From NCBI RefSeq assembly GCF_900096585.1, contig NZ_FMYH01000004.1:248001-312000 (forward strand): 64,000 nucleotides of DNA, read 5' to 3'. Position 1 is the first letter of the stretch. Each line of letters starts with the position of its first letter. The DNA comes from Sanguibacter gelidistatuariae (GTDB lineage: Bacteria > Actinomycetota > Actinomycetes > Actinomycetales > Cellulomonadaceae). This document shows, piece by piece, positions 7,805 through 64,000 of this stretch. The position numbers and the translations under genes were made by a program. The notes beneath the pieces are model-generated. The model was not told the DNA's origin and ran no database searches. It saw nothing but the letters and a program-made list of their open reading frames with translations.

Positions 7805-8236
7805 ATGGGCGACGGATGGGACATGGCTGGTTCTGCGCTCGGGGGATCGCACCCGAGCGCGCAGGGGCCTGCCGTCGTCGTGATCGAGGACGACGCCGAC
7901 ATCCGCGCGCTCATCCACTCGGTCCTGGTCCGGGGCGGCCTCCAGGTGCACATCGCCCGCTGCGGGCTCGAGGGCCTCGCCCTCGTGGCGACGGTGCGAC
8001 CCGCGCTCGTCACGCTCGACGTCGGGTTGCCCGACATCGACGGCTATGAGGTGCTGCGTCGGCTGCGAGCCGACCCCCGGAATGGCGACCTGCCCGTCCT
8101 GCTGCTGTCCGCGCGCAGCCAGGAGGAGGAACTGACCGAGACGTGCGCCTTCCTCGCGAAGCCCTTCCGCGCCCGCGAGCTCCGGGCCACGGTAGCCGGC
8201 CTGATCGCCGCCCAACCCAGCCCGCCCGCCGCCTAG
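7805..8236 (+). CDS. Stand-alone receiver-domain response regulator
   Basis: A 143-aa single CheY-like domain. VVVIEDD (D29, D30) forms the acidic pocket, D72 in TLDVGLPDIDG is the phospho-acceptor, and FLAKPF carries the conserved Lys. There is no output domain. It faces the PAS histidine kinase at 8412-10094 across a palindromic repeat, so the two may be partners, but they are not co-transcribed. Confidence 0.88.
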   Translation: MGDGWDMAGSALGGSHPSAQGPAVVVIEDDADIRALIHSVLVRGGLQVHIARCGLEGLALVATVRPALVTLDVGLPDIDGYEVLRRLRADPRNGDLPVLLLSARSQEEELTETCAFLAKPFRARELRATVAGLIAAQPSPPAA

Positions 8237-8291
8237 CCACGCCCGCCCGCAGTCGCCTGACCGCTCCCCCCCAAACGCCGGTTCCCGGTCC

Positions 8292-8350
8292 ATAGGTGTC
8301 CGTTTACCGCCCTGTTCTCCCGGTGGGCAGGGCGGAAAACGGACACCTAT
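8292..8350. repeat. Palindromic repeat A1
   Basis: Arms 8292-8314 and 8328-8350 (23 nt, one mismatch) flank a 13-nt loop. The arm reads AGGTGTCCGTTT then CCGCCCTG. It lies between convergent genes. Related copies are at 28966-29030 and 62810-62872. There is no U-tract, so it is not a standard terminator. Confidence 0.85.
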
Positions 8351-15260: not shown

Positions 15261-15360
15261 GCCCCCTCCCTCCCTCCCCGCCCCCTCCCTCCAGCCCTCC
15301 CCTCCCTCCCCTCCCCTCCCCTCCCTCCCGCCCCCTCCCTCCCTCCCTCCCCTCCCTCCC
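15261..15360. repeat. Polypyrimidine (CCCT)n tract
   Basis: Almost uninterrupted C/T on the plus strand with repeated CCCTCC units. The minus strand carries many GGGA runs that can form a G-quadruplex. Confidence 0.85.
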
Positions 15361-15539
15361 GCCGAACTCGTGAACGGCTCGCCGAGCTCGTGAGTTAGGG
15401 CTGTTTCGCGGGTCGAAACACCGGTAGCTCACGAGTTCGGCGGGGGACTCACGAGTTGGGCGGGGGACTCACGAGCTCGGCGGGGGACTCACGAGTTGGG
15501 CGGGGGACTCGGTGAGGGACTCACGAGCTCGGCGGGAGG
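15361..15539. repeat. Palindromic repeat C0 plus 20-bp tandem repeats
   Basis: The 5' half shares GAACTCGTGAACGGCTCGCC with copies C1 and C2. Inner arms are 15382-15394 and 15428-15440. The 3' half is extended by CTCACGAG(T/C)T-type 20-bp units starting at 15428, 15448, 15468 and 15488, a 12-bp insert, and a fifth unit at 15520. Confidence 0.85.
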
Positions 15540-18078: not shown

Positions 18079-18142
18079 CGCTGAGTGCGTGAAAATACAC
18101 GTGTTGCCCCGGCATGTCGCGTACATCTTCACGCACTCAGCG
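18079..18142. repeat. Palindromic repeat B1
   Basis: Arms 18079-18103 and 18118-18142 (25 nt, four non-Watson-Crick positions) flank a 14-nt loop. The arms start CGCTGAGTGCG. It sits between cbs and metB, with its 3' arm ending 17 bp before the metB -10-like hexamer. Relatives are at 46630-46695 and 56562-56627. Confidence 0.85.
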
Positions 18143-25221: not shown

Positions 25222-25297
25222 CGGCGGCGCGGGTGGTGCGCCCGGGTGCGGTGCGCGCGGAGGCCGTTGCTGCGTCGTCGGGCAGGGTGCTGGTGGA

Positions 25298-25342
25298 CGA
25301 CGGCGGGGCCGCACCGGATCATCCGGTGCGGCCCCGCCGTCG
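25298..25342. terminator. Perfect palindrome between ilvA and greA
   Basis: Two 22-nt arms (25298-25319 and 25321-25342) are exactly complementary around one central C. It lies between convergent ilvA and greA, so it can terminate both. Confidence 0.9.
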
Positions 25343-25366
25343 TGCATGCGTGGACGTCGTCCGCGC

Positions 25367-28032: not shown

Positions 28033-28899
28033 GTGCGCGTCACGATCGCCCAGCTCGAGGTGAGCGCGGACCACAGCGCGAATGTCGTCGTGGTGCGCCA
28101 GGCCTGCGCGGAGGCGGCCCTGGTCTCGGCGGACCTGCTCGTGCTCCCCGAGTACGCGAGCGGCTACGACCCGCGCGGGGTGGGCATCGAGCACGCCGAG
28201 TCCCTCGCGGGGCCGTTCGTCCAGCTGCTCCGCGAGCAGTCGGCGGAGACCGGCGTGACGATCGTCGCGGGGATGGTCACGTTCCCGGAGGGGGCTGCGC
28301 ACGGGGCCGACCCTGGTCCGGACCGAGCGGCCGCCGCGCCCCGGGCGAGCAACATCGTCGTCGTGGTGCGCGGGGGAGAGGTCGTGGGGGCGTACCGCAA
28401 GGTTCACCTCTACGACGCCTTCGGCCACCGCGAGTCCGACCGGCTCGAGCCCGGTGACCCGGCCGCACCGCCGCTCGTGGTCACCGTCGGCGACCTCGCC
28501 GTCGGCATCATGACGTGCTACGACCTGCGCTTCCCCGAGAGCGCCAGGCGCCTGGTCGACGCCGGTGCGCAGGTCCTCGTCGTCCCGGCGGCCTGGGCTG
28601 CAGGGCCCGGGAAGGTCGACCAGTGGAGGGTGCTGGCCCGCGCCCGGGCGATCGAGAACACGTGCGCCGTGCTCGCCGTCGGGCAGGCCGGCAAGGGGGT
28701 CAGCGGGCACTCGCTCCTGGTCGGTCCGGACGGCTCGGTCGCAATCGAACTGGCCGACGCCGCAGCCGTGACCAGCGCAGACATCGACGCGGCCGGCATC
28801 GCGGCCGAGCGCGACCGCAACCCGTCCCTGGCCAACCGCCGCTACACCGTCGTCCCCGTCCCGACAGCGCCGACGGCTCCGCTCACTCCGACTGACTGA
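28033..28899 (+). CDS. Carbon-nitrogen hydrolase (nitrilase superfamily)
   Basis: A 288-aa Nit-like amidase. The catalytic triad is E40 (LPEYAS), K123 (YRKVHLYD) and C162 (TCYDLRFPE). The DLRFPE context is shared with Nit1/Nit2-type omega-amidases and deaminated-glutathione amidases. GTG 28033 begins one base after the previous stop, so it is in the mca operon. A linked role in thiol repair is inferred. Confidence 0.9.
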   Translation: MRVTIAQLEVSADHSANVVVVRQACAEAALVSADLLVLPEYASGYDPRGVGIEHAESLAGPFVQLLREQSAETGVTIVAGMVTFPEGAAHGADPGPDRAAAAPRASNIVVVVRGGEVVGAYRKVHLYDAFGHRESDRLEPGDPAAPPLVVTVGDLAVGIMTCYDLRFPESARRLVDAGAQVLVVPAAWAAGPGKVDQWRVLARARAIENTCAVLAVGQAGKGVSGHSLLVGPDGSVAIELADAAAVTSADIDAAGIAAERDRNPSLANRRYTVVPVPTAPTAPLTPTD

Positions 28900-28965
28900 C
28901 TGACTCCCCACGGTCGGGCCTCCCACCCGTCTGACCACCCCAACCCGCCCACTCGCCCATCCCCA

Positions 28966-29030
28966 TCGATAGGTGCGCAAATTCCGCCCTGAATTCGCCA
29001 AGAGCAGGGCGGAGTTTGCGCACCTGTCGA
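28966..29030. repeat. Palindromic repeat A2
   Basis: Arms 28966-28991 and 29005-29030 (26 nt; two G-T wobbles) flank a 13-nt loop. The arms read AGGTGCGCAAATTCCGCCCTG-like. It lies between the convergent nitrilase and trhA genes. Confidence 0.88.
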
Positions 29031-29128
29031 CGGCGGCGCAGGGCGGGTGGCGGAGCAGGGCGGGCGGCGCGCAGGGCTGGGTGGTCGAGCGGGGCCGGTG
29101 GAGTGGGCCGGTGGTCGGTCGCGGAGCT

Positions 29129-29917
29129 TTAGGCGGCGGTCGCGGCGAGCATGATGGCTGCGTAGTGGCAGCCGAAGCCGATGACCGTGAGCACGTGGAA
29201 GATCTCGTGGAAGCCGAACCAGCCCGGGACCGGGTTGGGGCGCTTGAGCGCGTAGATCACGGCGCCGACCGTGTAGGCGAGGCCGCCGATCGAGATGAGC
29301 CAGACGATCGTCGGGCTGCCGTAGGTCCAGAACTGCGGCATGTATCCGACCGCGACCCAGCCCAGGGCGAGGTAGATCGGGACGTACACCCAGCGCGGGG
29401 CGCCCAGCCAGATGATCCGGGCAGCGAGCCCGAGCAGGGCGCCGACCCAGACGATGATCAGCAGCACCGTCGCCATGCTCTTGGGCAGCATCAGCACCGC
29501 CAGCGGGGTGTACGTGCCGGCGATGATGAGGAAGATGTTGGAGTGGTCGGCCCGGCGCAGCGCCGCGGCCGTCCGCGGCGACCAGGTCCCGAGGTGGTAG
29601 ACCGCGCTCGTCCCGAACAGCAGGATCGCGCTCAGCCCGAAGACAGCCGTGGAGACCTTCCCGGCGACCGGCGGGGCCATGGCGACGAGGATGATGCCCG
29701 CCACGAGCGCGATCGGGAAGGTCACCGCGTGCACCCAGCCGCGCAGACGAGGCTTCTCGCTCCGGCGGACCAGCCCGGCGTCGGCGACCTCGTCGATCGT
29801 CTCCGGCGCGGCGTCCGGCGCGGCGTCCGGCGCGGTGCCCGGCGCGGCGTCCGGCGGCGTGACCGGCGGCGTGACCGGCGAGGAGTCGGGCATGTCGGCC
29901 GGTGAGGTCGTGGCCAT
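29129..29917 (-). CDS. trhA: Hemolysin III / TrhA family membrane protein
   Basis: A 262-aa protein with seven predicted membrane helices after a 40-residue Ala/Pro/Asp tail of APDA repeats. HAVTF, SAVYHLGTWSP, DHSNIF and FHEIFHVLTVIGFGCHYAAI are the conserved blocks of the progestin/adipoQ receptor-hemolysin III family; the three His residues would bind zinc. Homologues control membrane energetics; haemolysis is not implied. ATG 29917 follows AGGAG. It is divergent from uppS. Confidence 0.9.
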   Translation of the reverse strand: MATTSPADMPDSSPVTPPVTPPDAAPGTAPDAAPDAAPETIDEVADAGLVRRSEKPRLRGWVHAVTFPIALVAGIILVAMAPPVAGKVSTAVFGLSAILLFGTSAVYHLGTWSPRTAAALRRADHSNIFLIIAGTYTPLAVLMLPKSMATVLLIIVWVGALLGLAARIIWLGAPRWVYVPIYLALGWVAVGYMPQFWTYGSPTIVWLISIGGLAYTVGAVIYALKRPNPVPGWFGFHEIFHVLTVIGFGCHYAAIMLAATAA

Positions 29918-35810: not shown

Positions 35811-36668
35811 ATGTCTGTCGCCCCGAACACCGTCGTCATCGCCTCGAGCGCCGCGGACGCGGCCGCCGTCGAGGCCGTCGTGAGCCATCACGCCGAGCTC
35901 TCCGGAGCGCTCGAGGCGCATGTCCACCGGGTCTTCTCGGCGGTCATCAACAACGACGTCCGCGGAGCCGAGCACGAGCGCGCGGCCCTCGTGGCCTGGT
36001 GCGCGGCCGAACTGCTGCCGCACGCGCTCGCGGAAGAGGCGGCCATGTACCCCGCCGCCCACCAGGACCCGCGTGGACGCCTGCTGATCGACGCGATGAT
36101 CGATGAGCACGCGATCCTGACCGAGCTCGTCGAGGCGATCCGCAAGGCCGTCAACCCGGTGGTCGTGGCAGCCAACGCGCACGCGCTCCGGGTCGTCTTC
36201 GCGAGCCACCTGGCCAAGGAGAACGAGCTCATCCTGCCGCTGCTCGCCGGCTCGCCTGACGTGTCGTTGGCCGAGGTGCTCGAGGGGATGCACGTGTCGC
36301 TGAGCGGGGGCGACGACGCTGGTCACGACGACGCTGGTCACGACCATGCTGGTCACGACCATGCGGTGCCCGACGCCGGCCCGGACGGTGCCGCCTCGGC
36401 GCCGGCGGGCGGCTCCTGCGGCTGCGGCGGGCACGACGACGCAGGCTTCCCCGAGCTGGACGCGACCGCCATCCCGCACGCGATCCGCCACGCGACGATC
36501 TTCGGCGCGCTCGAGGTGGTGGCAGCCGGCGGCGGGCTGGTGCTGCTCGCCCCGCACGCCCCGCTCCCGCTCCTGCGCCAGATCGACGCCCGCTGGCCCG
36601 GCCGCTTCGAGGTCAGCTACCTCCAGGAAGGCCCAGAGATCTGGAAGGTCCAGTTCCTGGCGGCGTAG
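35811..36668 (+). CDS. Hemerythrin-HHE plus DUF2249 protein
   Basis: A 285-aa soluble protein. Residues 20-150 are a hemerythrin-like four-helix bundle with His/Glu ligands (SHHAEL, PHALAEEAAMYP, DEHAIL, SHLAKENELILP). A Gly-His-Asp repeat segment with SCGCGG follows at about 165-210, then DUF2249 to the C-terminus. Hemerythrin-DUF2249 proteins often accompany nitrite/NO genes and may bind NO or oxygen. It is divergent from the nirK operon. Confidence 0.85.
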   Translation: MSVAPNTVVIASSAADAAAVEAVVSHHAELSGALEAHVHRVFSAVINNDVRGAEHERAALVAWCAAELLPHALAEEAAMYPAAHQDPRGRLLIDAMIDEHAILTELVEAIRKAVNPVVVAANAHALRVVFASHLAKENELILPLLAGSPDVSLAEVLEGMHVSLSGGDDAGHDDAGHDHAGHDHAVPDAGPDGAASAPAGGSCGCGGHDDAGFPELDATAIPHAIRHATIFGALEVVAAGGGLVLLAPHAPLPLLRQIDARWPGRFEVSYLQEGPEIWKVQFLAA

Positions 36669-36715
36669 CTAACACCCCCGCACCCGCGCCCCCTCGCACC
36701 CCCGCCCCCTCCCCG

Positions 36716-36814
36716 TCGAACTCGTGAACGGCTCGCCGAACTCGTGAGCCACGGTGGTCCAGGACCGCGAACGTCCCGTGGCTCACGAGCTCGCCGGCGC
36801 GCTCACGAGCTCGA
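36716..36814. repeat. Palindromic repeat C1
   Basis: Inner arms 36737-36754 and 36776-36793 (18 nt, one mismatch) enclose a loop with a GGTCC-A-GGACC hairpin; outer 12-nt arms are 36716-36727 and 36803-36814. It follows the hemerythrin gene. Confidence 0.88.
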
Positions 36815-36873
36815 CGACCGGGATAGTTGGTGCAGGGGCCGAGCATCGGTCGCCGTCCAGTCAGGAGCCCGCC

Positions 36874-37239: not shown

Positions 37240-37265
37240 CCGCCAACGAGGCCCCCACAACCCCG

Positions 37266-37390
37266 TCGAACTCGTGAACGGCTCGCCGAACTCGTGAGCC
37301 ACGGCGGTCCAGGACCGCGGACGTCCCGTGGCTCACGAGTTCGGCGGCGCGCTCACGAGTTCGGCGGCGCGCTCACGAGTTCGGCGACCG
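37266..37390. repeat. Palindromic repeat C2 with triplicated arm
   Basis: Inner arms 37287-37304 and 37326-37343; the 3' arm unit GCTCACGAGTTCGGCGGCGC is present at 37331, 37351 and (slightly changed) 37371. The first 60 nt are nearly identical to C1. It lies between convergent VOC and RidA genes. Confidence 0.88.
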
Positions 37391-45800: not shown

Positions 45801-46559
45801 ATGACGCACGCACCCGAGACCCACCACCGCCCCGACACCGGCGAGCTCGTCAGCACCGAGCCCGTCAACGCGACCGTCCGCTACACCATGTGGTCGGTGT
45901 TCTCGACGGTCCAGACGCTGCCCGCGGACGACGCCGAGCGCACGGCCATGATCGACGCCGCGCTCACCGCGGTGGGCGGCGCGGCGTCGGGCATCGACAC
46001 CGAGCTGACCGTGCGCGGCTGGTACGACGTCGGCGGGCTGCGCTCGGACGCGGACCTGATGGTCTGGTGGCACGGACCTTCGATCGAGTCCGTCCAGCAC
46101 GCCTACCAGCGCCTGCGTGCGAGCGACCTGGGGCGTCACCTCGAGCCCGTGTGGTCGGTCGCGGCCCTGCACCGCCCGGCGGAGTTCAACCGCGGCCACA
46201 TTCCCGCGTTCATGGCCGACGAGGCCCCCGAGAAGTACATCTGCGTGTACCCCTTCGTGCGGTCCTACGACTGGTACCTGCTGCCCGCCGACGAGCGCTC
46301 CACGATGCTCCGCGACCACGGCATGGCCGCGGCCGGCTACAAGGACGTCCGCGCGAACACCGTCTCCGCCTTCGCCCTCGGCGACTACGAGTGGATCCTC
46401 GCCTTCGAGGCCGCCGAGCTCGACCGGATCGTCGACCTCATGCGGGACCTGCGCGCGACCGAGGCCCGCCGCCACGTCCGCGACGAGGTCCCCTTCTTCA
46501 CCGGCCCGCGCACAGACCTGCACGCCTGGGCCGCCCGCCAGCCCCTCTCCGAAGACTGA
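45801..46559 (+). CDS. hemQ: Coproheme decarboxylase
   Basis: A 252-aa chlorite-dismutase-fold protein. [20 protein letters not shown] and [17 protein letters not shown] (bearing the conserved Tyr) and MLRDHG (candidate proximal His) are present. It finishes haem b synthesis by decarboxylating coproheme. Spacing of 57 bp after hemH suggests one transcript. There is no transmembrane segment. Confidence 0.95.
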
Positions 46560-46564
46560 CCGCC

Positions 46565-46613
46565 GGCGCCCGGAGCCGGACGGGACCCGCCCGGAGCCGG
46601 ACGGGACCCGCCC
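46565..46613. repeat. Two 22-bp direct repeats after hemQ
   Basis: CCCGGAGCCGGACGGGACCCGC-like unit occurs twice in tandem immediately after the hemQ stop. Confidence 0.7.
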
Positions 46614-46629
46614 AGCATCGCGCCCTCTT

Positions 46630-46695
46630 CCGCTGAGTGCGGTCAAACGGCTGCCCGATGTCGGGAATGTCCAGCCGATCGACCGCACTCAGCGG
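46630..46695. repeat. Palindromic repeat B2
   Basis: Arms 46630-46653 and 46672-46695 (24 nt, two mismatches) flank an 18-nt loop with its own CCCGA/TCGGG stem. It lies between convergent hemQ and gdhA. Confidence 0.9.
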
Positions 46696-46714
46696 GTGGG
46701 GACGGGTGGGTGGA

Positions 46715-48079
46715 TCAGGGGTAGAGGCCTCGGATCTGGTGGGCCTCGGCTACCCGGCGGACCCCGATCACCAGGGCCGCGTCCCGCAGGGTGAGGCCCT
46801 GCTGGGCCGCGACGTCGGTCACGTCGGCGAAGGCGGTATGCATCCGCTCGGCGAGGCGGCTCTCGATCTCGCTCAGCGTCCACCGGTAGGCCTGGTTGGC
46901 CTGCGCCCACTCGAAGTAGGACACGACGACGCCTCCCGCGTTCGCGAGGATGTCCGGCACGACGACGATGCCCTGGCTGGCCAGGATCGCGTCGGCTTCG
47001 GCCGTGGTCGGGCCGTTGGCGCCCTCGACGACGAACCGGGCTCGCACCGCAGGCGCGGTGACGGCGTCGAGCACGCCCTCGACCGCGGCCGGAACGAGGA
47101 CGTCGACCTCGAGCGCGAGCAGGGCGGCGTTGTCGATGGGATCCGCGCCGTCGAATCCGACGACCGACCCCGTGGCTTCCACGTGGGCGAGGAGCCGCGC
47201 GACGTCGATCCCGTCCGCGTTGTGCAGCCCACCGAACTGATCGCTCACGGCGACCACCCGGGCGCCCTCCGCGGCGAAGATGTCCGCGGCGTGCGCCCCC
47301 ACCTTGCCGAAGCCCTGCACGGCCACGGTCGCCCCCGCCAGGTCGCTCCCCGCCTGCGCCAGGGCCGCCCGCGTGACATGCACGACGCCGCGCGACGTCG
47401 CCGTCGTGCGTCCCAGGGACCCGCCCAGCGCGATCGGCTTGCCGGTCACGACCGCGGGGATGGTGTACCCCTGGCTGGCCGAGTACGTGTCCATGATCCA
47501 CGCCATGGTCTGCTCGTTCGTGCCCATGTCGGGCGCCATGATGTCCTGCTCGGGACCGATCATCGGCATGATCTCGCTCGTGTACCGGCGGGTCACCCGC
47601 TCGAGCTCGGCCTGGCTGTAGGCGAGCGGATCGATGCCCACACCGCCCTTCGCCCCGCCGTAGGGGATGTCGACGACGGCGCACTTCCACGTCATGAGCA
47701 TCGCCAGGGCGCGGACCTCGTCGACGTCGACGCTGGGGTGGAACCGCAGGCCACCCTTGCCCGGACCTCGGGAGACGTTGTGCTGGACGCGGTAGCCCTT
47801 GAACAGCTCGATCCGGCCGTCGTCGCGCCGCAGCGGGATGGCGACGTTGACCTCCCGCCGAGGCGTCGCGAGCATCTCGTGCAAGCCCTCGTCGTACTCC
47901 AGGATCCGGACCGCTCCGGCGAGCTGACCGAGGGCGTTCGCCCACGGGAGGGAGGCCTCGCTGCGGCTCTGGGCGGACCCGTCGGCGCCCCCGCGGGCGG
48001 ACGGGCGGGCGGCCTCGGAGGGGAGAGGCGCCGCCGCGATAGGCGGGGCCGTTGGCCCGGAGACAGTGGTAGGTGACAT
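46715..48079 (-). CDS. gdhA: Glutamate dehydrogenase (Glu/Leu/Phe/Val family)
   Basis: A 454-aa enzyme. GGLRFHPSVD and PYGGAKGGVG (catalytic K144) are in the first domain, and the Rossmann motif GFGKVG in the second. The N-terminal 40 residues are low-complexity. It interconverts glutamate and 2-oxoglutarate; cofactor choice is not readable. ATG 48079 has AGGAG 9 nt upstream; GTG 48112 is possible. Confidence 0.92.
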   Translation of the reverse strand: MSPTTVSGPTAPPIAAAPLPSEAARPSARGGADGSAQSRSEASLPWANALGQLAGAVRILEYDEGLHEMLATPRREVNVAIPLRRDDGRIELFKGYRVQHNVSRGPGKGGLRFHPSVDVDEVRALAMLMTWKCAVVDIPYGGAKGGVGIDPLAYSQAELERVTRRYTSEIMPMIGPEQDIMAPDMGTNEQTMAWIMDTYSASQGYTIPAVVTGKPIALGGSLGRTTATSRGVVHVTRAALAQAGSDLAGATVAVQGFGKVGAHAADIFAAEGARVVAVSDQFGGLHNADGIDVARLLAHVEATGSVVGFDGADPIDNAALLALEVDVLVPAAVEGVLDAVTAPAVRARFVVEGANGPTTAEADAILASQGIVVVPDILANAGGVVVSYFEWAQANQAYRWTLSEIESRLAERMHTAFADVTDVAAQQGLTLRDAALVIGVRRVAEAHQIRGLYP

Positions 48080-52763: not shown

Positions 52764-52806
52764 GACGGGCGCTGCCGGAAGGTTGTGCCTTCCGGCAGCG
52801 CCCGTC
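52764..52806 (-). terminator. Intercistronic hairpin between cebE and cebF
   Basis: A perfect 19-bp stem (GACGGGCGCTGCCGGAAGG) with a 5-nt loop lies between the binding-protein stop (52846) and permease start (52702). It should attenuate or process the message and protect the 5' part. Confidence 0.85.
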
Positions 52807-56561: not shown

Positions 56562-56627
56562 CCGCTGAGTGCGGTCAAATGGCTGCCTGATGTCCGGTTT
56601 GGGCAGCCAAACAACCGCACTCAGCGG
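56562..56627. repeat. Palindromic repeat B3
   Basis: Arms 56562-56585 and 56604-56627 (24 nt, four mismatches in the middle) flank an 18-nt loop. The first 40 nt are nearly identical to B2. It lies between convergent pdtaS and whiB1. Confidence 0.9.
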
Positions 56628-62626: not shown

Positions 62627-62982
62627 CCTGCGAGCCTGCCCTGCACGCGTCGGGAACGACCGAGGGCCCGTGGCCCGCCGGGGACATCCCGACGATCCAC
62701 AGACCCTCGAACCGCGCGTTCTGACCACGACCGACCCACAAGGTTTCACCCCCGATCACCCGCCACCCAGCCCGCCCTTCCGGTCCCCGTCCGGTCCCCG
62801 TTCTCCCATCCGTAGGTGCACGAATTCCGCCCTGTCCTCAGGAAAAACGAGGCGGATTCCGTGCACCTATGGCCGGAGCTGGGTGGCTGGGGACCGGGCA
62901 GGCGGCCGGCCGGGTTGCCCGGCCGGAGCTGGGGCAGGCGGCTAGCAGGAGTCCGGCCGGCCGGGCCGGGCGAACTCGACGC
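62627..62982. other. Gene-free interval with palindrome A3
   Basis: A 356-bp gap between the EccC-like start and the FtsX-family stop. It carries palindrome A3 (62810-62872); nothing else is recognised. The EccC-like frame is open to 62749, so a small part could belong to that gene. Confidence 0.7.
62810..62872. repeat. Palindromic repeat A3
   Basis: Arms 62810-62834 and 62848-62872 (25 nt, five mismatches) flank a 13-nt loop, the same layout as A1 and A2. Confidence 0.85.
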
Positions 62983-64000
62983 CTACTCGACCGCGAGCGC
63001 CTCGACCGGGGACGTCCTGGCCGCGCTGCGGGCGGGCAGCACCGAGGCCAGCAGCCCGGCCGCGATGGCGATCGCCACGACGAGGACGAGGTCGCGCCAC
63101 GGGACCGTCAGCCGGACGCCCGCGAAGGACCCCAGGACGACCGTGGACCCGATCCAGCCGTAGACCAGGCCGAGCAGGACACCCAGGACCGCGCCCACCC
63201 CGGCGATGAGCGTGCCCTCGATTGCTAGCGTCGTGCGCAGCTGACGCCGGCTCAGCCCGATGGCCCGCAGGGTGGCCGACTCGCGCCGGCGTTCCAGGAC
63301 CGACAGGGACAGGGTGTTCGCCACCCCGATCAGCGCGATGACCACCGCGATCCCGAGCAGCCCGATGATGACGGCCAGGATCGTGTCGATCACCTGCTGC
63401 ATCGCGGCCCGCTCCATCGCCGCACCGGTCAGTGCTGCCGGCGTCTGGGACATCGTGTCCCGGATGTCGGCGACGATGGCGGAGGCATCGGAGGGGTCGG
63501 TGATCTTGAGCCACACCCCGTTGACCACGGCCGCGCCGTCGAGCTCGCGACCGACCGCGGGCGTCGCGATGATGTTGTCGGAGCCGATGTTAGCCACCAC
63601 GACGTTGACCGTGACGGTTCCGTCGACGCCGGCGAGCTGCAGCGTCGACCCCGAGTCGAGGTGGTAGGCGCTCGCGACGAAGAGGCCGACGACCACGGTC
63701 TGGTCGTCGAGGCCGTCGAAGAGGCCATCCGGGTTGACCGCCGCGGCGGCGGCGGCCGGGTCCACGGCGTTGACGACCACGTCCTGGGAGGTCGAGTCGT
63801 CGGGCCAGGTGACCGTGACGTTCGTGCCGGAGAGCTGCGCCATGGCGGCGACGCCGGAGACCTTGGACAGGTCCTCGATCAGTGCGGGGGTCAGGCCCGT
63901 TGCGGGGTCCGTCCCGTCATCGGGCGCGGAGCTGATCACCCCGGCGTCGATCGCCACGTCGAAGGGATACTGCTCGTCGAGGGTCGTGGCGAGGGAGTTG
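62983..64000 (-). CDS. FtsX-family ABC permease, 3' part
   Basis: At least 339 residues are visible; the frame runs off the window at 64000. The C-terminal part shows three or four membrane helices and the FtsX/MacB signature around LERRRESATLRAIGLSRRQLR, ending RTSPVEALAVE. An extracytoplasmic domain precedes it. The protein would export or release a substrate with an ATPase encoded beyond the window. Reading continues through GTG 63957, so that is not the start. Confidence 0.88.
   Translation of the reverse strand, partial: NSLATTLDEQYPFDVAIDAGVISSAPDDGTDPATGLTPALIEDLSKVSGVAAMAQLSGTNVTVTWPDDSTSQDVVVNAVDPAAAAAAVNPDGLFDGLDDQTVVVGLFVASAYHLDSGSTLQLAGVDGTVTVNVVVANIGSDNIIATPAVGRELDGAAVVNGVWLKITDPSDASAIVADIRDTMSQTPAALTGAAMERAAMQQVIDTILAVIIGLLGIAVVIALIGVANTLSLSVLERRRESATLRAIGLSRRQLRTTLAIEGTLIAGVGAVLGVLLGLVYGWIGSTVVLGSFAGVRLTVPWRDLVLVVAIAIAAGLLASVLPARSAARTSPVEALAVE

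Follow-up and report, generated by a model that had tools for sequence, protein, structure and literature searches.

In the available part of one account, repetitive extragenic palindromic (REP) sequences are dispersed extragenic inverted repeats whose hairpins have a set length and show compensatory changes (PMC3116915), and the excerpted text of a second places a REP-associated tyrosine transposase (RAYT) gene between two inversely oriented repeats (PMC2817692). The CGTC-REPs, as an extract of a third source has it, 'apparently lack a dedicated transposase' (PMC3733652), and the accessible portion of a fourth reports that the EDxHD homing endonuclease I-Bth0305I cleaves a target of ~60 bp as a dimer (PMC3943268). 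Here we describe palindromes in a stretch of 64,000 nucleotides of the Sanguibacter gelidistatuariae genome (contig NZ_FMYH01000004.1, positions 248,001 to 312,000; the window), three of which form family A and lie at 8292-8350 (genome coordinates C12:256285-256357), 28963-29033 (28966-29030 in the original prediction) and 62810-62872, where the original prediction, made from the sequence, had placed them. These three are likely to be solo copies of a ~63-bp inverted repeat targeted by a dedicated nuclease, and the best reading is that a nuclease-linked mobile element accounts for them, as its dispersed targets or its non-autonomous copies; the association with the nuclease gene is observed, and cleavage and mobility we infer.

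The full unit is a gene of ~300 codons, whose product joins an AbiEi-like module at the N-terminus to a nuclease domain of Vsr/EDxHD type, located between two matching palindromes. Such a gene was met at an Oerskovia site described below; its S. gelidistatuariae homologue (C12:240894-241715), with 56% identity to the Oerskovia product across residues 16-300, is located between two family A copies at a distance of 6-7 kb to the left of the window, and the relative G003 (one of five genomes of the same genus, G001-G005) is without both palindromes and gene at this locus (170 bp vs 1,464 bp). The enzyme contains the AbiEi antitoxin fold and the Vsr/EDxHD catalytic fold, and the product of the Oerskovia gene matches the PADLOC AbiEi model (6e-8) as well as Pfam REase_MTES_1575 (4e-10) and DUF559 (3e-4), the two Pfam matches being barely above their cut-offs. 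Across 54 sequences, residues E203, D236, E247 and H253 are each conserved in at least 90% and D249 is invariant, and we take all five, by motif, to be catalytic. A GGGCT/GGGTT microsatellite adjoins the A palindrome at the nuclease gene (right of 3944 in locus L064; right of 240787 on C12), and family A copies often sit in low-complexity C-rich or G-rich DNA that is absent from G003; such DNA beside A copies could be scars of break repair.

Of the 221 genomes available for the bacterial family, 120 have a homologue of the nuclease (protein-only search, E≤1e-15), and loci were taken among the matches listed: 30 as returned, 40 chosen for coverage of genera and identity, and five plasmid homologues. 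Since loci L297 and L320 are the same gene, L320 is omitted from the 69-locus count and L297 from the direct flank comparison and the stop-codon and span counts. The 30 returned loci have palindromes (score ≥15) on both sides in 22 cases, on one side in six and on neither in two. Among the 69 loci there is a 5' palindrome in 51, a 3' palindrome in 50, both in 40 and either in 61, compared with 21, 30 and one (5', 3' and both) among 254 control genes. When the flanks were compared directly, including the plasmid homologues, they matched in 58/74 loci vs 9/255 controls, and matched in both orientations in 51/74 vs 0/255. Flanking palindromes have a median score of 45 within a locus and 9 between loci, and the within-locus similarity sum of 1700 exceeds all of 20,000 permutations (maximum 729). 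Their median span is 64 bp; of the 50 palindromes on the 3' side, 28 include the stop codon of the gene, and the 5' palindrome lies 38-211 bp upstream (38-107 bp in 34/51), its end a median of 83 bp before the start codon. Four of the five plasmid homologues have matched flanks (three Arthrobacter records and one Tsukamurella), the Nonomuraea record being the exception. Palindrome similarity decays quickly with protein divergence, from a median of 0.49 above 65% identity to 0.14-0.17 below it, and thus no fine co-phylogeny is possible. At one Oerskovia site (the third compared; L276-L282) the palindrome-gene-palindrome arrangement is present in G059-G062, a single palindrome in G027 and something else in G063; in G064 (O. 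turbata) the segment is inverted, with a shortened open reading frame (ORF) that is without the stretch around E203-D236. Both palindromes of the inverted O. turbata segment belong to another subfamily than those of the other species, as in paired replacement or conversion.

The arrangement resembles REPIN-RAYT systems, in the parts of their descriptions available, in that its hairpins are dispersed and show compensatory changes and its enzyme gene lies between two repeat copies, although the enzyme here is unrelated: an AbiEi-Vsr/EDxHD protein rather than a Y1 HUH transposase. No match to the Y1 transposase (PF01797) is present in the S. gelidistatuariae genome, in a search that was positive in 5 of 14 control genomes. 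The repeats also differ, being symmetric, 63-65 bp long and with outer arms TAGGTG or CTGAGTG, whereas those of REPIN-RAYT are 20-40 bp with a one-sided GTAG/CGTC head, and they number tens of copies in this genome (20 of family A and 36 exact pairs of a family C described below) and not hundreds. Membership of the REPIN-RAYT group is therefore rejected on the absent Y1 transposase, the absent one-sided head and the different size. The CGTC-REPs are likewise palindromic, with a mobilizing enzyme that is unknown as far as the extract goes, and differ in size and tag. With the EDxHD homing endonucleases the nuclease shares a related fold, and the palindrome length agrees with the ~60 bp target given in the accessible text, cleavage here being predicted; it differs in its joined AbiEi-like N-terminus and its location in bacterial chromosomes, and in that two intact palindromes flank the gene and the target is apparently not interrupted. 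At the third Oerskovia site, where G027 has a solo palindrome and four relatives have the full arrangement, both flanking copies stay intact in those relatives. The AbiEi antitoxins share the AbiEi fold, to which a nuclease domain is added here; in loci like L290 the palindromes leave no space for a second gene, and thus no room between them for an AbiEii toxin gene, the wider neighbourhood not having been searched.

Family A is well defined in the S. gelidistatuariae genome. A covariance model built from 16 copies finds 20 in the 4.04-Mb genome, each matched on both strands, and 23 of the 24 genome places that match one arm (≤1 mismatch) fall inside family A palindromes; a chance origin is excluded on these two grounds. 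The same model matches 8 of 59 genomes, S. gelidistatuariae included; the family is neither confined to three copies nor absent from relatives. The arms share the motif TAGGTG n8 CCGCCCTG. The proposed loop of exactly 13 nt holds without interruption in two of the window copies, that at 62810-62872 requiring one arm mismatch, and of the 20 copies in the genome 15 have a 13-nt loop and five a loop of 14 nt; the loops had also been called unrelated in sequence, but many read YTTY...RAAR by eye and so are not wholly so. Covariation of the arms is borne out, with 89.9% of cells paired vs 82.9% in shuffled alignments of the 16 copies and two-sided changes in 36 cells vs 17.8, although the signal is less clear for the number of pairs changed on both sides (10 vs 7.9, a value reached in 65 of 500 shuffles). 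RNA folding of the three window copies beats dinucleotide shuffles on both strands (z -6.29 to -12.88). No Rfam family reaches its gathering score in the window, and eight loci gave just one tRNA and a ZTP riboswitch, neither at the elements; a known RNA family as the identity of the palindromes is set aside. The ZMP/ZTP riboswitch (40.1 bits) is at L206 5096-5186, ~1.4 kb from an Oerskovia element. DNA-uptake-sequence terminators consist of inverted pairs at gene ends and are alike in that respect, but family A arms are almost never single, and a DNA uptake sequence is rejected because the arms are almost exclusively within palindromes.

The wider family extends across several genera. The exact family A pattern has no match in 84,980 named species genomes, among which S. 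gelidistatuariae itself is possibly not included, but a scan of the same set for pairs of the 11-mer CGCTGAGTGCG, a sister motif (38-46 bases between the 11-mers, exact outer arms required and the outer pairs hence invariant) finds 57 elements in 56 stretches. Their hosts are Oerskovia, Promicromonospora, Cellulosimicrobium, Luteimicrobium, Flavimobilis, Sanguibacter, uncultured Cellulomonadaceae and one record labelled Sphaerisporangium cinnabarinum; we assume these genera to form one family, the Cellulomonadaceae of GTDB. The last record (ATCC 31213, locus L170) may be wrongly labelled. The elements are 63 bp (44), 64 bp (12) or 65 bp (1) in length. When 15 A copies and 21 of these elements are aligned without gaps, 93.2% of cells are paired vs 69.6% after shuffling, and 21 of 25 pairs show two-sided changes; a joint model of A copies and named-species elements matches 72 of 221 genomes of the family in 16 of 25 genera (E≤1e-4), counts saturating at 24 per genome and some of the 72 genomes having just one or two. 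Matches to the family A model in G035 keep the same 63-bp frame with different outer arms, CCGCTGAGTGCGG. The 11-mer CGCTGAGTGCG occurs 97 times in the S. gelidistatuariae genome vs 0 for its reversed control, and 72 of these sites form 36 exact family C pairs, spaced 53 bp in 35 and 52 bp in one; the pairs listed for G035, G036, G027 and G016 are likewise 52 or 53 bp apart.

The other palindromes in the window, like those of family A, are assigned to neither strand. Two of 64 bp belong to family C (outer arms CGCTGAGTGCGG), at 46631-46694 between convergent genes and at 56563-56626, and the gene at C11:284885-285718 is probably their cognate, a family C palindrome having been found only 5' of it (L321). 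A family C2 palindrome (CGCTGAGTGCGTGAAAATACACG, 64 bp) is at 18079-18142, and the C2 type also brackets a partner gene in this genome, C10:192573-193415 (L320). Family B palindromes are long, with a repeated CGAACTCGTGAG motif, and related copies occur at many places in G003. A double-motif copy is at 36714-36816, a second at 37263-37367 with the same family in the aligned G003 region, and a third at 15378-15444 (within 15358-15484) has tandem CTCACGAGTT-like repeats after it that reach about 15484; at this last site the gap between alignments is 341 bp compared with 36 bp in G003, and the G003 gap is without the element. No cognate nuclease gene for family B was found in the S. gelidistatuariae genome, and B-like arms bracket the distant nuclease homologues L352 and L356. 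G003 has ~1 kb of extra DNA at window 36666-36830, where S. gelidistatuariae has a B palindrome, and as its product resembles a WYL regulator by eye, this insert (at 36714) was rejected as the family B nuclease. Ordinary terminator-like hairpins are present at 25293-25347 and 52764-52806, and these gaps align with five and four of the five relatives respectively, unlike those of families A, B and C.

The positions of the elements relative to genes were judged with a crude custom gene caller. Of 57 named-species elements, 28 are in convergent gaps, 23 in tandem gaps and none in divergent gaps (four are at stretch edges and two overlap gene calls), the same loci having 124 tandem, 43 convergent and 56 divergent gaps that measure 63 bp or more. 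All but one of the 57 adjoin a gene 3' end, and 72 of the 84 adjoining ends are within 25 nt (median 11 nt); in 12 of the 84 the distance is that at which a TGA belonging to the element acts as the stop codon. In the window, the copy at 8292-8350 is between convergent gene ends at 8236 (+) and 8412 (-) and that at 28963-29033 between convergent genes 28033-28899 (+) and 29129-29917 (-), as predicted; the third is 3' of gene 62983-63999 (-), and its convergent call depends on a low-scoring ORF and may be tandem. Genome-wide, 12 of the 20 A copies are called convergent, five tandem and three divergent, but among the divergent calls one (L064) is the palindrome 5' of the nuclease gene and a second (L077) follows a tRNA-Lys gene, leaving only L076; the 'tandem' copy L081 follows a tRNA-Ala gene. 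The 60 nt preceding the hairpin are richer in C than G in all 40 flanks of the 20 A copies (C 0.58 and G 0.18 next to the hairpin), as in the plus-strand leader at 8237-8291, which has a G-rich mirror on the right side; the values are C 0.40 and G 0.31 after stop codons in convergent gaps without palindromes (16 flanks), and C 0.40 and G 0.33 in convergent gaps with other palindromes (12 flanks).

The palindromes probably serve as two-way 3'-end hairpins after stop codons, and it could be proposed that they are simply host-owned, each hairpin being common to two convergent genes and acting on both transcripts in Rho-dependent termination and protection of 3' ends, with the families arising by gene conversion and the nuclease gene as a passenger. 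The placement after stop codons on both sides fits such a role, as do the C-rich, G-poor leaders, which are stronger than in the comparison gaps, and the fact that relatives have different palindromes or hairpins in the corresponding convergent gap (G004 at 46559-46715; Oerskovia G059). Nonetheless, a T-tract is absent after the hairpins (per-position T fractions of 0.10-0.30 where the 57 named-species elements end in gene sense and 0.02-0.22 after A copies), for which reason an intrinsic terminator is set aside. The one-sided changes in 28 copies do not favour G-U over A-C (8 vs 14), giving no sign of a wobble bias from selection for an RNA hairpin; correction of quasi-palindromes by template switching would likewise yield two-sided changes. 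Host ownership leaves unexplained both the matching palindromes on either side of one gene family, 5' side included, and the conservation of outer arms and length across genera, and we regard it as unlikely. An operator or self-marking role, in which the AbiEi-like domain represses its own gene through the palindromes, the nuclease is anti-phage and the solo copies are decoys or host-protecting marks, accords with the AbiEi fold and PADLOC match and with a 5' palindrome in 51 of 69 loci, but it requires neither the 3' copy at the stop codon nor dozens of solo copies at gene ends, and is very improbable.

Comparisons among relatives bear on the history of these sites. The gap containing the 28963 copy is 229 bp in S. 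gelidistatuariae and 9 bp in G003, 6 bp in G004, 66 bp in G005, -8 bp in G002 and 279 bp in G001; that of G005 has a short ordinary hairpin and that of G001 a weaker palindrome (13-bp arms, score 12) that differs in sequence and is similar to a strong palindrome at another place in G001. At the 62810-62872 site only 3 bp separate the flanking alignments in G003. At window 46559-46715, which has the C palindrome, the palindrome of G004 is strong and of a different family, G005 has a short hairpin, and neither G003 nor G002 has anything notable. The C2 element at 18079 is common to S. gelidistatuariae and G003 with compensatory flips, and is not seen in G005 or G002. One site is constant in seven Oerskovia genomes, with compensatory changes (L216-L222); there G027 (L222) has an interior of another subfamily between unchanged flanks, as in replacement of the whole element. 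At a second Oerskovia site the arms have diverged in three genomes and G059 has an unrelated hairpin instead, and a 100-kb stretch of four Oerskovia genomes has three sites common to all and one in G062 only, without a clean junction. Judging by these alignments in Sanguibacter and Oerskovia, element sites are long-lived and their sequences turn over.

Neither a target-site duplication nor a clean empty site was seen in six gaps compared with G003, at the nuclease locus of S. gelidistatuariae or at three Oerskovia sites, the flanks differing and the relatives being 5-18% diverged; this weighs somewhat against a mobile, nuclease-targeted repeat, and insertion with target duplication is tentatively set aside. 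The original prediction was of structural selection or else a mobile miniature repeat, as opposed to random terminators; it is borne out in its constant geometry, its covariation and its dispersed copies, all of which extend beyond the window, and the mobile repeat is the better half in view of the matched copies bracketing the nuclease gene, although no clean insertion is seen and wobble pairs lend no support to selection on an RNA hairpin. The palindromes could also be miniature inverted-repeat transposable elements, derived from a conventional insertion sequence whose transposase lies elsewhere, with the nuclease as cargo or defence; fixed length, inverted ends, dispersal and patchy distribution would fit. 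This is hardly probable at all, since the gaps compared show no target duplication or clean empty site, the enclosed gene is the nuclease in the bracketed loci examined (chosen by that gene, other cargo not being sought), and the genome is without a Y1 transposase, the one transposase family searched.

If the palindromes are targets of the linked nuclease, a dimer would read the two conserved outer arms of a single palindrome and nick or cut there; in this model such reading fixes the total length at 63-64 bp. Repair would copy the palindrome, or the whole palindrome-gene-palindrome segment, into new places, and recombination between copies would delete or invert the gene, leaving solo palindromes. 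In several families the outer arms carry a stop codon whichever strand is read, TAG in family A and TGA in families C and B and in the types of G012, G004 and G043, and consequently insertion near the 3' end of a gene would terminate that gene. Copies may survive mainly after stop codons, the element supplying its own TAG or TGA and a strong hairpin to both strands. Palindromes at gene ends were probably exapted as two-way 3'-end hairpins, and the C-rich leader in S. gelidistatuariae is possibly Rho-loading.

Orphan 'DUF559 domain' genes are numerous in this phylum. We lean slightly towards the broader proposal that many of these are autonomous copies, with lineage-specific palindromes, of a new class of mobile DNA in Actinomycetes in which an AbiEi-EDxHD nuclease lies between two of its own ~60-bp dimer targets and seeds solo targets after stop codons. 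Dispersed palindromes linked to an enzyme appear to be of a known kind, and the AbiEi-EDxHD class seems to be new in such a role among the literature matches listed, which include nothing linking DUF559, MTES_1575 or AbiEi nucleases to palindromes, most subscription journals being outside their coverage. These findings give orphan DUF559/AbiEi-type nuclease genes a candidate function, and since every locus names both an enzyme and its expected ~63-bp target, a direct test is possible; should the enzymes cut as expected, they would be a source of long-site nucleases with specificities readable from the genome. If the proposal is correct, a lifestyle like that of REPIN-RAYT evolved around an unrelated enzyme, a homing-type nuclease having turned into a repeat-spreading one that supplies its hosts with ready-made two-way gene ends, with a bearing on how convergent genes end in GC-rich bacteria.
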